Shown: one piece after another, positions 33,120 to 37,064 of the stretch
Position numbering within the stretch: the first letter of the stretch is position 1
Layout of the letters: every line of letters starts with the position of its first letter
Source: an uncultured Clostridia bacterium
GTDB taxonomy: Bacteria > Bacillota > Clostridia > Oscillospirales > Ruminococcaceae
Direction of reading: 5' to 3'
Assembly: GCA_947177735.1 (NCBI GenBank)
Contig: CAMWVP010000008.1
Coordinates: 1 to 45,418 of the forward strand
Length of the DNA: 45,418 nt
Made by a program: the position numbers and the translations under genes
The notes under the pieces: generated by a model
Seen by the model: the letters and a program-made list of their open reading frames with translations, nothing else
What the model was told of the DNA's origin: nothing
The model's database searches: none

Positions 33120-34121
33120 TTATTTTATTCCGATTCTCATTCTGTAACAAAAGCTTACTTTATTTCTACTCGTGTCAAAGCTCTCATATACGGCTTTTTG
33201 GAAATTCAGATAATCGTTTTCGATAAGCCCGGGGGAGTGCTTCAATATCGTCTGTAACCCTCCTTGACTTTGCGCCAGAGCTAAAAAACGTTCGATACTG
33301 CATTCCTCGCAATTGTCAAAAACTATTTCTCTGCAATATTTGAAAAAACCGCTCTCGATCATATTTTTCAGATGATCGTTTTTATCCCAGCGATGAAACG
33401 TTTCGCGGATATCCTTATTTTCCTCCTCGATAACTCTTACCTTGTTGAATAAATTCATATAAGCTATCTCGGCGTTTGCGTTGCAGACGGGAGGCCAGTC
33501 GCAGTCCACAGCAGCGAATATCCCGCCCTTTTTCAATATACGGTCGACCTCCGAAAGCGTATCGTGAGGGTTCATCCAGTGAAACGACTGCGAGCAGATC
33601 ACAACGTCCGCGCTGTCGTCGGGCAATCCGGTGTTATCGGAATATGCTTTTACAAAAGAAGCATTTCCGCTCGATTTTGCCTTGGCGATACTCAGCATAT
33701 CCTCGCTCGGCTCAATGCCAATGACCTTTCCGCATTTATTCTCCCAAGCCCTTGTTGATAAGCCCGTTCCACACCCCATATCCACAACGGTATCGGGAGT
33801 TTTTCCGAGGTAATCGGTTATTATCTCGATTGCGTGATCGGGTACGGCAGGACGGCTGTTCTCGTACACGTCGGCAAATCCGATAAACCTGTCGGCGTTT
33901 ATTTTGGCTGCCCGGTCGTCTGCTGTTTGAGCATTAGCAAGCAGGCGGTTAAGGGAAACGCCGAACATTTTGGATATCTGCTTCAGCGTTTCGATATTCG
34001 GGGTCGTTTCGCCGTTCTCCCAGCGCGAGACCGCCTGCCTTGTGACGTAAAGAGCCTGTGCCATTTCGTCCTGTGTCATATTGACATTCTGACGAATCTC
34101 TTTTATTATCTCGCCTATCAT
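33120..34121 (-). CDS. XRE-type HTH fused to a class I SAM methyltransferase
   Basis: A 333-residue fusion. Residues 1-65 form an HTH_3 DNA-binding domain (MTQDEMAQALYVTRQAVSRWE is split here as the recognition region), and residues about 80-190 a Methyltransf_11 domain with the SAM loop VVDMGCGTGLS, acidic IGIEPSE, and SQSFHWMN. The C-terminal third is of unknown fold. HTH-methyltransferase fusions are known in Clostridia, some near stress or transport genes, but substrates are undefined. The ATG at 34121 has GAGGTGAT close upstream and a perfect promoter. The gene sits between two direct repeats and is divergent from the RNA at 34235, whose promoter it might control. Confidence 0.87.
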   Translation of the reverse strand: MIGEIIKEIRQNVNMTQDEMAQALYVTRQAVSRWENGETTPNIETLKQISKMFGVSLNRLLANAQTADDRAAKINADRFIGFADVYENSRPAVPDHAIEIITDYLGKTPDTVVDMGCGTGLSTRAWENKCGKVIGIEPSEDMLSIAKAKSSGNASFVKAYSDNTGLPDDSADVVICSQSFHWMNPHDTLSEVDRILKKGGIFAAVDCDWPPVCNANAEIAYMNLFNKVRVIEEENKDIRETFHRWDKNDHLKNMIESGFFKYCREIVFDNCEECSIERFLALAQSQGGLQTILKHSPGLIENDYLNFQKAVYESFDTSRNKVSFCYRMRIGIK

Positions 34122-34138
34122 CTTATCACCTCATAAAT

Positions 34139-34167
34139 ATTATATCAAACAGGCAGACCCAAGTCAA
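34139..34167 (-). promoter_or_regulatory. SigA promoter of the HTH-methyltransferase gene
   Basis: On the minus strand TTGACT (34167-34162), 17-base spacer, TATAAT (34144-34139). The transcript would start about 12 bases before the ATG. Confidence 0.85.
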
Positions 34168-34181
34168 GCAACCGATTGTTG
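34155..34181. repeat. Direct repeat copy 2 and possible operator
   Basis: Partner of 33077-33103. It covers the -35 box of the minus-strand promoter. Inside and next to it, GCAAC (34168-34172) and GTTGC (34178-34182) form an inverted repeat with a 5-base centre, a plausible site for the HTH domain encoded by the adjoining gene. Confidence 0.55.
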
Positions 34182-34199
34182 CGGTAGAAGAGGCGTACT

Positions 34200-34228
34200 T
34201 TCACGAAATCCGCTGAGCGGCATAGAAT
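34200..34228 (+). promoter_or_regulatory. Promoter of the structured RNA
   Basis: TTCACG (34200-34205), 17-base spacer, TAGAAT (34223-34228). Transcription would begin near 34235. It is divergent from the minus-strand promoter, 32 bases away. Confidence 0.6.
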
Positions 34229-34234
34229 AAACAA

Positions 34235-34425
34235 GGGTAAGATCCACAGCCGTACCGTGAGGTGGCCGAAGTTCAGTCCGACAGGACTGAACCCCCGCAA
34301 TGTTTCTTAGAAACATTGCGATATGGTCCGTGAATAGCCGAGCGGGCAGAAGAGCAAGGATCTGCAGCGGCTGTTTGATATACCCAAAAAGCGGGCTGTT
34401 CCGATAGGAGCAGCCCGTGAATTTT
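34235..34425 (+). ncRNA. Structured non-coding RNA with predicted pseudoknot
   Basis: Between a promoter and an intrinsic terminator lies about 190 nt with no sensible open frame but strong structure. Hairpin A is GTTCAGTCC/GGACTGAAC (34271-34279 with 34284-34292, loop GACA). Hairpin B is GCAATGTTT/AAACATTGC (34297-34305 with 34311-34319). The ends pair as AGATCC/GGATCT (34240-34245 with 34358-34363) and ACAGCCG/CGGCTGT (34246-34252 with 34368-34374); these two helices cross, giving a pseudoknot or two exclusive states. It is not a tRNA, SRP RNA, RNase P, tmRNA or cobalamin riboswitch by motif. Size, compact fold and host phylum would suit the raiA-type RNA, but I cannot confirm that class from memory. 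No protein gene follows on this strand, so it is not a cis riboswitch. Confidence 0.65.
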
Positions 34426-34436
34426 ATTCTTTTTTA
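34392..34436. terminator. Bidirectional terminator of the RNA and of murD
   Basis: CGGGCTGTTCC (34392-34402) pairs with GGAGCAGCCCG (34407-34417), 11 bp with a GATA loop. On the plus strand a T-rich tail follows to 34436. On the minus strand a CTTTTTGGG tail follows (34391-34384). It therefore can end both convergent transcripts. Confidence 0.88.
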
Positions 34437-35749
34437 AGCGCGTTTACCAGCTGCTTGAAGTGCCGTCCGCGCTCCTCAAAGTTTCGGTAGAAGCCGTAGC
34501 TCGCCGACGCGGGCGAGAGCAGCACGCGTTTATGCGCGAATTCGCTTGCCATACGAACCGCCGCCTCCATGTCCTCAGCGAACATCAGGTTGACCATGGG
34601 GTTTGTGACGAGCTTTCCGATGCGCTTTCCGCTGTCGGGCAGCAGAATGACCGTCTCGACCACGCCCGTGTTCAGGAAATCGCCGAGAACGTTGTAGGAG
34701 ATGCCTCTGTCCATGCCTCCGAGGATAATGCAGTCCGCGCCGTCAAACGCGTTCACGGCGGCGATAGCAGCCTCGGGAACGGTGCAGATGCTGTCGTTGA
34801 TGTACTCCACTCCGTTTATCTCCGCGACAAATTCAAGGCGGTGCTCCAGTCCGTTGAACGACGGCAGCGAGTCGAGGCACTTTTGCAGGTCCGCGCCTGC
34901 TTTGACAGCCGCGGCGAGCGCCATAGCTATGTTGTAGATATTGTGCCGTCCGCACAGCCGCGTGCGTATCCTACCGGCAGGTATCTCCTCGCCGAAAAGC
35001 GTTATCGAGCCGCCGTCCGTCCACACGTCAGCCTGCTTGCCGAACGCCGCCGAATAGACGTTGCCCGCGCAGTCAAGCGGTAGAATGTCCGAGTTCGCAA
35101 CGGTGATGTCGTTTTCCTGCTGAAACCGCGCTATGTTGCGCTTTGCCTCGGCATAAGCCTCATAGCTTACATAGTGATCCAGATGTTCGGGGAACATATT
35201 CAGCATCACCGCGATATCGGGAGAGTGCTTTACGAATTCCAACTGATGGCAGCTCATCTCGCACACAGCCGTCATACCGCCGTCCAACTCGTCGAAGCGC
35301 TTCATCGGCGGCACTCCTATATTGCCTATCAGCATAGCGGGCAAACCGTTAGCCGCGAGAAAATGATGGATAAGAGAGGACACGGTGGACTTTCCCTTAG
35401 TACCCGTCACACCGATAATGCGGCAGGGTTTCGTTCTGAGCAGCAGCTCGGTCTGCGAGAGTATCTTAGCCTTAGCAGCGTCATCAAGACGATTCTTGAC
35501 GGCTACTCCCGGCGACTGCAGGATAATATCATACTCCGCGCACTCCTCAAGGTAGTGCGTGCCGCAGATGGCGGTAAGGTTGGGCATACGCAGATCGTAC
35601 ACATCGATGGGGTTCATATCGGCAATGGCTATCTCGGGGCAGCAGCGGAGCTTCCTCAAAATGTCCAGCCACACCTGTCCCTCGCGGCCGAAGCCGAGTA
35701 TTACGGGGCGCTTGCCCTCAAAGATCGGTTTTAATACGTCAAATTTCAT
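34424..35749 (-). CDS. murD: UDP-N-acetylmuramoyl-L-alanine--glutamate ligase (MurD family, possibly L-Glu-specific MurD2)
   Basis: Cytoplasmic ATP-dependent ligase that adds glutamate to UDP-MurNAc-L-Ala. The P-loop GVTGTKGKST lies at 113-122, the middle domain HLDHYVSYEAYAEAK marks the Mur ligase fold, and the C-terminal domain starts near LEHRLEFV, with NDSICT and ILGGMDRG. 441 residues, as usual. The ATG at 35749 is preceded by GGAGAG at 8 bases and overlaps murL by 11 bases; an upstream in-frame start at 35806 lies inside murL and has no ribosome site. Because murL precedes it, the ligase probably attaches L-glutamate, which MurL then epimerises. That is inference; a D-Glu-specific MurD cannot be excluded. 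Confidence 0.85.
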   Translation of the reverse strand: MKFDVLKPIFEGKRPVILGFGREGQVWLDILRKLRCCPEIAIADMNPIDVYDLRMPNLTAICGTHYLEECAEYDIILQSPGVAVKNRLDDAAKAKILSQTELLLRTKPCRIIGVTGTKGKSTVSSLIHHFLAANGLPAMLIGNIGVPPMKRFDELDGGMTAVCEMSCHQLEFVKHSPDIAVMLNMFPEHLDHYVSYEAYAEAKRNIARFQQENDITVANSDILPLDCAGNVYSAAFGKQADVWTDGGSITLFGEEIPAGRIRTRLCGRHNIYNIAMALAAAVKAGADLQKCLDSLPSFNGLEHRLEFVAEINGVEYINDSICTVPEAAIAAVNAFDGADCIILGGMDRGISYNVLGDFLNTGVVETVILLPDSGKRIGKLVTNPMVNLMFAEDMEAAVRMASEFAHKRVLLSPASASYGFYRNFEERGRHFKQLVNALKKE

Positions 35750-37064
35750 CTGTAATTCTCTCCAGTAACGGTAAAAATCGTTTCGGAACAAAATTGTTCC
35801 TGTCAAAGTAATTTGTCAAGCTGACGGGCTTGAACCCGGGGAATTTCTCCGCGAACCGTTTAAGCAGCACGGGCGGGCTCTCCGAGCGCCTGTCAAGCGC
35901 CATTTTCAGCGACAGCCGCACCTCGTCCTTCGTGCCCACGCACTCGAACGGCTTATCCTCGCCGTCCAGCATCAGCCCGTCGAGCATATCCGCGAGCTCG
36001 GACTTTTGCAGCATATTGCAGCCGAATATTTTCTCGAGCTCCTCGTCGTCCAGAAACGCCGCCAACAGGATGTACACATACAGGCACTTCGCGCATTCCC
36101 CGCACCAGACGTTCGTTTTCGAGCCGAGATTGCAGCTCTGAAACGCCCCGAAGTACTGCGGATATTTCACGAACTCCCGTGCTATCTGCCACTCCGACAG
36201 CGGGCGCAGCAGGCTGAAATATTCCGGGCAATCACCAAACGACATCGCGCAGTATTCGCGGAAATCGCGCTCAAACTCGGTGGATTTGCTGTACTGGTGA
36301 TTTATCCGTGCGCCCTCGACGTAGGTCTCGTTGGCGCTGCTTTCGTTGGATAGGGCGATGTACCTTTTCCCGAGAACACACGCGTGTAAAAGCGCCGAGA
36401 ACGCCACCACAGCCGAGAACGGCGTGTGCCCGTTGAGATAACCGCGCGAGTTCAGTTCGAGGAGCGTTTTGTCGATAGTCCGCGTCGGAGCGGCGATATT
36501 ATCGGGCGGCAGCCCTGCCGCCTCTACACAGCCGAGCGTTGCGCCGCGCGGATTGATGATGTACGGCGTGATGTCCTCGTCCGCCTGCTTCAGCAGCTCG
36601 AGCGTGACCACGCTGTCCTTGCCGCCGCCGACGGGAACGAGCGTTCCGCTGAGATCGGGCTTGCATATCGGCAATTCGGGCGGCTCGGGCGCTTCGATTG
36701 TCATAAAGCTGTCAAAGTCCGTCGTAATGCCGTTTCGGTAGAAAAACTCCCCAAGACCGTTAAAATACAGTTTTTTCCACCAGTTCTTCTGCCGCTCCGA
36801 AAGCCCTCCGCACCGCACCTCGACGGTCGGGCAGCAGGCGCATTTCCAGTACGAGACCAGCTCCGCCATTCCCAGCGAAAACGCTATCCGTTCAGCCTGC
36901 TCCCTGTCGAATTGATAGCTGCTCAGCTCAAGGTTGAACCGCCATTCGGGTCGGAAATGAAACTCATCGATCTGGAAGTGAAACCGAAGGCTTTTCCCGG
37001 AAAGCTCGAAGCTGTGGTATATAAATCTTGGGTGTTTTTTCCGCAATTCGTCAAATGTGCCCAT
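35739..37064 (-). CDS. murL: Probable UDP-MurNAc-L-Ala-L-Glu epimerase MurL
   Basis: A 441-residue cytoplasmic protein with a PP-loop-like ATP site PVGGGKDS (144-151) in the middle and a C-terminal cysteine group WCGECAKC followed by a helical region. The N-terminal 120 residues are unlike other PP-loop enzymes. This layout and the overlap with a MurD homologue match MurL, the ATP-dependent epimerase that turns the terminal L-Glu of UDP-MurNAc-L-Ala-L-Glu into D-Glu, first described in Xanthomonas. The family link is from memory and gene context, so the name is probable. GAGGAG lies before the ATG. Downstream of tmcAL by 44 bases, probably one operon. Confidence 0.7.
   Translation of the reverse strand: MGTFDELRKKHPRFIYHSFELSGKSLRFHFQIDEFHFRPEWRFNLELSSYQFDREQAERIAFSLGMAELVSYWKCACCPTVEVRCGGLSERQKNWWKKLYFNGLGEFFYRNGITTDFDSFMTIEAPEPPELPICKPDLSGTLVPVGGGKDSVVTLELLKQADEDITPYIINPRGATLGCVEAAGLPPDNIAAPTRTIDKTLLELNSRGYLNGHTPFSAVVAFSALLHACVLGKRYIALSNESSANETYVEGARINHQYSKSTEFERDFREYCAMSFGDCPEYFSLLRPLSEWQIAREFVKYPQYFGAFQSCNLGSKTNVWCGECAKCLYVYILLAAFLDDEELEKIFGCNMLQKSELADMLDGLMLDGEDKPFECVGTKDEVRLSLKMALDRRSESPPVLLKRFAEKFPGFKPVSLTNYFDRNNFVPKRFLPLLERITDEI

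Follow-up and report, generated by a model that had tools for sequence, protein, structure and literature searches.

The question raised by this locus is what lies at positions 34234–34425 on the plus strand of contig CAMWVP010000008.1, a stretch of 45,418 nucleotides (nt) from an uncultured Clostridia bacterium (assembly GCA_947177735.1) that was analyzed whole and is hereafter called the window. A preliminary description, made from the letters alone, had proposed a free-standing and probably pseudoknotted RNA there, with a raiA-type RNA as one guess. We conclude that the segment is very probably a small noncoding RNA gene of about 190 nt, whose start and end are inferred, respectively, from the position of the -10 element and from the terminator with its T run. 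The best explanation of this gene, which we hold to be fairly likely, is a structured RNA of late sporulation, made in the mother cell from a promoter of sigma-K, the last sporulation sigma factor of that compartment, and acting in trans. The explanation is based on sequence comparison: the RNA gene is conserved, its promoter is laid out like that of dpaA, and the genome encodes a sigma-K-type factor.

A conserved noncoding RNA gene

The preliminary description had read a promoter, about 190 nt without coding capacity and a terminator as a stand-alone RNA gene acting in trans. All of these parts were found, together with a single homologue in 36 of the 43 genomes of the genus; what changes is the nature of the promoter, which comparison assigns to the sigma-K type. 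The segment 34230–34425 folds at -93.9 kcal/mol, with a z-score of -9.7 against dinucleotide shuffles, and z is -7.3 for 34234–34388, in which the terminator is left off. The inner hairpin region of the 36 homologues, counted up to the GAAUAGCC motif, is 12–100 nt long and falls into all three length classes modulo 3, so a coding function is unlikely. No protein gene follows on the plus strand; from the right, MurD converges. These features support a predicted stand-alone, noncoding RNA with its own promoter and terminator, which should act in trans.

The intrinsic terminator is a hairpin with a T-rich tail at 34391–34418 (plus strand), to which the scan gives 12 pairs rather than the 11 bp claimed at first. 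Among the 36 homologues, a hairpin starts at most 60 nt past the core in 30, and a T-rich tail stands behind the hairpin in 26. Since its reverse strand ends in five T, the same terminator may also serve the convergent MurD gene.

Of 61 genomes searched by DNA, 14 matched, among them the window's own; all are from the same genus, and the matches fell mostly on both ends of the segment. The first covariance model, built on an alignment of 14 sequences with only two helices, then found one copy per genome in the 36 genus genomes, which include 26 of the 27 good ones; the weakest homologue (G012) scored 25.8 bits. In 295 genomes of the order this model matched only two, both of them members of the genus. 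A second model made from all 36 homologues gave 14 matches in 396 genomes of the family: seven belong to the genus, and seven are weak matches in other genera (E of 0.007–0.08) that we rejected, reading them as simple CAGCCG...CGGCTGTTT terminators or as unrelated sequence. Thus no convincing copy was found outside the genus among the genomes sampled from the order and family, which were samples of larger groups searched with strict filters and 9–12 candidates scored per genome, which may have let diverged copies escape. An exact pattern found 21 contigs in a species-level genome collection; 17 of them, from Oscillospiraceae, Ruminococcaceae or Clostridia assemblies, match the model at 73–93 bits, and the four from other phyla (L191, L194, L198 and L202) do not match it. 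The phage and plasmid collections gave no match to the RNA. The sporulation gene spoIVA is present in all 27 good genomes of the genus.

A promoter layout shared with dpaA

A promoter had been part of the preliminary description, and a promoter-like site does lie directly upstream. The pattern match at 34203–34229 comprises a -35 element AC (34203–34204) and a -10 element GCATAGAAT (34220–34228), for which the homologues give the consensus GCATAnAAT. The strict form AC-N14-16-GCATANAAT occurs upstream of 35 of the 36 homologues and the loose form AC-N14-16-N-CATAnnnT upstream of all of them; in 28 homologues the AC lies 26–31 nt ahead of the aligned start. Sigma-K promoters of Bacillus subtilis are described as having a 5-nt -35 element and a 10-nt -10 element with 14–16 nt between them (PMC517825), and dpaAB is reported to be sigma-K dependent in both Clostridium difficile and B. 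subtilis (PMC3789822). Judged by its sequence, the promoter of the RNA is with good probability of the sigma-K type, AC-N15-17-CATAnnnT.

The comparison that carries this assignment was made within the genus, with 30 dpaA upstreams (from 39 genomes with a match above 80 bits) and 30 spoIIIAA upstreams (36 genomes gave a match, that of the window not being one of them). AC-N15-17-CATAnnnT is found in 36 of 36 RNA homologues and in 27 of 30 dpaA upstreams, where 1.15 are expected, and in none of the 30 spoIIIAA upstreams. The strict motif occurs in 22 of the 30 dpaA upstreams, in 19 of these at most 70 nt from the start, as against an expectation of 0.035 under mononucleotide shuffling. Conversely, TTCTA-N14-17-CATAnnnT is found in 19 of the 30 spoIIIAA upstreams, in 0 of 36 RNA homologues and in 0 of 30 dpaA upstreams; ten spoIIIAA upstreams contain no CATAnnnT at all. 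The shared TTCTA element (loci L213–L242, the spoIIIAA upstreams), unlike the ATA described for sigma-E of C. difficile, is possibly this genus's form of the sigma-E -35 element. The dpaA upstreams L079, L092, L102, L113, L118 and L135 have the same promoter layout as the RNA.

The naming of dpaA needs a comment. Its scores fall under the curated cut-off in all 43 genus genomes, so the family model underdetects the DpaA of this genus, and a search at the default threshold also matches all 14 control genomes. The candidate in the window's genome has DpsA as its best family (150 bits, below the cut-off); the assignment is backed by the adjacent dpaB, which exceeds both curated cut-offs. Two other controls were given up. 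For sigma-K, yabG was unusable, with one weak match in 43 genomes. For sigma-E, spoIVA showed the AC motif in 0 of 30 upstreams, and it is a weak control, since in many loci a reading frame from upstream appears to extend as far as the gene; spoIIIAA was used in its place. In G000, G016 and G029, three good genomes of which one is the window's own, spoIIIAA was not detected, although spoIVA and dpaA are present.

The genome of the window encodes both a factor with GISQSYISR (sigma-E type, with Gln) and a factor with GISRSYISR (sigma-K type, with Arg). Both kinds also occur in G020, G034 and G031, the Arg form of G031 being a C-terminal half, and an Arg C-terminal half is present in G065. This Gln/Arg position is the residue that reads the -35 difference, Arg reading the C in the -35 element. 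No genome of the 43 passes the curated sigma-K cut-off, so the name sigma-K rests on the Arg residue and the motif. The two signals taken together (TTCTA versus AC, Gln versus Arg) suggest that the -35 code of sigma-E and sigma-K is readable in uncultured Oscillospiraceae.

Some members of the genus, including the window's genome, carry the sigK-like gene at full length, and in others it is split near residue 110 into two distant halves, such as C1:135462-135845 and C1:194209-194565 of G065. Several C-terminal halves lie on one contig of G015. We take the split gene to be reminiscent of the skin element.

Structure of the core

With small departures, the core has the order GGGUA, A-rich joint, ACAGCCG, short strand, GGU, hypervariable hairpin, CNNGAAUA, GCC, optional hairpin, CGGCUGU, joint and UACCC. 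In the best reading, the core would fold as a closed rod made of P1, P2, an inner stem with the 8-nt bulge CNNGAAUA beside it, and the hypervariable hairpin. All parts are on the plus strand. P1 is formed by GGGUA (34235–34239) and UACCC (34381–34385); it is near invariant, and with a start near 34234, as inferred from the -10 position, it would close the extreme 5' end of the transcript. P2 is formed by ACAGCCG (34246–34252) and CGGCUGU (34368–34374). The pairing figures of these two helices, 97.2% of cells for P1 and 99.6% for P2, lean on the model, as the alignment of the 36 homologues had been fitted to them; four of the five departing cells of P2 are still G-U or U-G. The inner stem P4 joins GGU (34261–34263) to GCC (34337–34339), a pairing that is possible in 36 of 36 homologues (100% of cells). 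Next to it lies the conserved bulge, CGUGAAUA in the window (34329–34336), and inside it the hypervariable hairpin region H2 (34264–34328), whose base pairs GGC (34264–34266) with GUC (34326–34328). The local hairpin H3 (34346–34365), GCAGA at 34346–34350 paired with UCUGC at 34361–34365 in the minimum-energy fold, is the optional part: a stem of at least four pairs is possible in 18 of 36 homologues, and in the remainder the segment is mostly too short.

Part of this structure had been seen before. The helix 34246–34252/34368–34374 of the preliminary description is P2 and is conserved. Its two perfect hairpins are present, but since they sit within the region that is hypervariable among relatives, they do not belong to what is conserved. 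The outer helix P1, the inner helix P4 and the adjoining bulge had not been listed. The pseudoknot did not survive the comparison: complementarity (5 or 6 nt) for the crossing helix 34240–34245/34358–34363 is kept in only 3 of 36 homologues, and its 3' strand sits in H3, the competing local hairpin of the predicted fold. We also rejected a two-hairpin fold of the inner part (CC/GG plus GCC/GGC). The rod with GGU/GCC formed is better in 32 of the 33 homologues in which both could be scored; the other three homologues lack the CC.

Covariation among the homologues had been named as a test of the helices. The end helices hardly vary, so covariation tells little about them; five pairs of P2 and P4 vary, through single G-U or U-G cells. 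Double-sided changes occur only at the base of the inner hairpin, where 95.4% of cells are paired; they affect two pairs and four cells. For the structure as a whole the paired share of cells is 98.3%, compared with 97.7% in shuffles and 28–49% when slid. Of 500 shuffles, 5 reached the covariation score and 38 reached the count of doubly changed pairs.

Proposed role and its alternatives

In the proposed mechanism, activation of sigma-K in the mother cell would lead to transcription of the RNA while the spore is being finished, the timing and compartment following from the promoter. The transcript would fold into the closed rod and then act in trans as spore maturation reaches its final stage, presenting the conserved bulge CNNGAAUA and the inner loop to a partner, which may be a protein or an mRNA. 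The contact surface is likely formed by the invariant ends together with the bulge beside GGU/GCC. A role in trans exerted through the bulge itself is a narrower claim, one we would put no higher than evenly balanced.

Several observations weigh against this explanation. At the promoter, the AC lies 64–96 nt ahead of the aligned start in 7 of 36 homologues, and G012 has the loose form, 43 nt ahead. Genome-wide, the strict pattern lacks specificity, though it is rare: with one spacing it gives 73 matches in 15 genomes, and the reversed control gives 50. Judged by position, the RNA accounts for 13 of these 73 and dpaA for 7, so that the remaining 53 are about background. Moreover, TTGACA contains an AC at the corresponding place and is matched at four or more of its six positions in 15 of the 35 strict homologues (at five in 8 of them), with spacings of 16–18, while random positions reach these levels in 11% (2%) of cases. 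The TTCTA form was derived from the spoIIIAA set itself, and the loose ATA-N12-17-CATAnnnT, which is nearer to the sigma-E form of C. difficile, occurs in 2 of 36 RNA homologues, 8 of 30 dpaA upstreams and 1 of 30 spoIIIAA upstreams. As to structure, the 36 homologue cores have an average fold z of -2.8, with 23 of them below -2 and the other 13 not, and the unconstrained best fold contains P2 in 25 of 36 and P4 in 20 of 36. P1, P2 and P4 are near invariant, no pair in them changes on both sides, and covariation is almost nil. As to the role, pairing with the mRNA starts of dpaA, spoIVA and spoIIIAA, the three that were covered, is not above chance, with mean z of -0.47 (26 loci), 0.50 (28) and 0.10 (26), respectively.

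On another reading, the transcript would be a conserved RNA of ribonucleoprotein type, dedicated to the last mother-cell stage of sporulation. Its rod and CNNGAAUA bulge would bind a protein such as a spore-coat factor, an RNA-decay factor or the sigma-K transcription machinery. The RNA would then be structural or directed at the polymerase instead of an antisense regulator. We regard this as unlikely.

The transcript could instead be a vegetative, sigma-A-dependent small RNA, with TAnAAT as its -10 and a TTGACA-like -35 element. A simple scan at the RNA promoter does return TTCACG-17-TAGAAT (9 of 12 positions), and the resemblance to TTGACA in 15 of 35 strict homologues was given above. The same resemblance, at four or more of six positions, is seen in 21 of the 22 strict dpaA upstreams, so it does not separate sigma-A from sigma-K. 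The details speak for sigma-K. In the 35 strict homologues AC is preceded by C (21) or A (14) and never by G, and no G precedes it in the 22 strict dpaA upstreams either, so that neither set contains TTGAC; TTG before AC is found in 0 of 35 and 0 of 22. The third base of TAnAAT in the RNA set is A (24), G (7) or C (4), never the T of TATAAT, which is present in 5 of the 22 dpaA upstreams. In addition, 35 of 36 homologues retain the GCA ahead of TAnAAT. We consider a sigma-A promoter quite improbable, and the sigma-K type is kept as much likelier, not as proof.

There is little room for the view that the segment is a cis-acting leader, a DNA element or the relic of a transposable element, although inverted repeats make up its conserved ends and different species have different genes beside it. 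It occurs in one copy per genome, with promoter and terminator conserved along with the core, and it is followed by the convergent MurD and by no co-directional gene in the window; the lack of matches in the phage and plasmid collections also speaks against a mobile element. Equally remote is an early mother-cell RNA dependent on sigma-E. The loose ATA form in two homologues is in its favour; against it, none of the 36 homologues has the TTCTA element of 19 of 30 spoIIIAA upstreams, and all 36 have the AC that is absent from all 30.

Relation to known RNAs

The Rfam search named in the preliminary description, for raiA and all other families, gave no match at the gathering threshold over the whole window with Rfam 15. 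At lax thresholds there were three matches in 34000–34700 and two in ten homologue loci, all below gathering and apparently due to chance. The raiA/ModT RNA (RF03072) is similar in being a free-standing structured RNA of about 200 nt from Clostridia that is linked to sporulation, as reported in PMC11706538. A member of that class is nonetheless exceedingly improbable here, and the raiA guess fails on both the covariance model and the promoter: the model gives no match in 34000–34700 even at E up to 5 and none in the 43 genus genomes (no control genome was matched either), a sigma-A promoter is reported for raiA in four clostridial species (PMC11706538), and the pseudoknot proposed for the present RNA is not conserved.

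The nearest kind appears to be the sporulation-controlled small RNAs, and we file the RNA as a new family of this known kind, going by its sequence. SurC of B. subtilis is described as a small RNA under sigma-K control (PMC9147052); compared by description only, it differs in being from Bacillus, while the RNA here was found in only one genus of gut Oscillospiraceae among the sampled genomes. CsfG and Bvs196 are likewise conserved, sporulation-specific small RNAs of Bacillus, and according to the same source they belong to the forespore (sigma-F/sigma-G), so that, again by description only, both compartment and promoter type are different. No earlier description of such an RNA was found in the open-licence literature, a term search of PMC11109978 included. 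A 2022 abstract states that, before the forespore small RNA it presents, none had been experimentally confirmed to regulate late sporulation (PMC9147052). A single-copy structured RNA with a sigma-K-type promoter, present in most of a gut genus that has sporulation genes, is a well-defined candidate for a regulator of this kind in the mother cell, and it adds a family that is missing from Rfam 15.

Neighbourhood

To the left of the RNA lies a divergent gene on the minus strand (33120–34121) with HTH_3 and Methyltransf_11 domains, and to the right the convergent MurD gene, also on the minus strand (34424–35806; 294 bits against a cut-off of 212). The divergent gene had been suggested as a possible controller of the RNA, a suggestion we did not retain, as it adjoins the RNA in only 3 of the 36 loci. 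MurD is at most 1.5 kb away in 16 of 36 loci, in either orientation. A zinc-ribbon-like gene is nearby in 16 loci and a polyphosphate-kinase-like gene in 8, both named from a reading of the sequences, and some homologue loci are cut by contig ends. Since the neighbours vary between loci, what the RNA keeps is its own promoter and terminator, not one particular gene beside it.

Two further promoter-like sites were noted in the window. On the minus strand, a strong sigma-A-like match, TTGACT-17-TATAAT (11 of 12 positions), stands at 34139–34167 ahead of the HTH-methyltransferase gene. The strict promoter pattern also matches at 48–74, upstream of a gene for a GtrA-family membrane protein (region 124–714).
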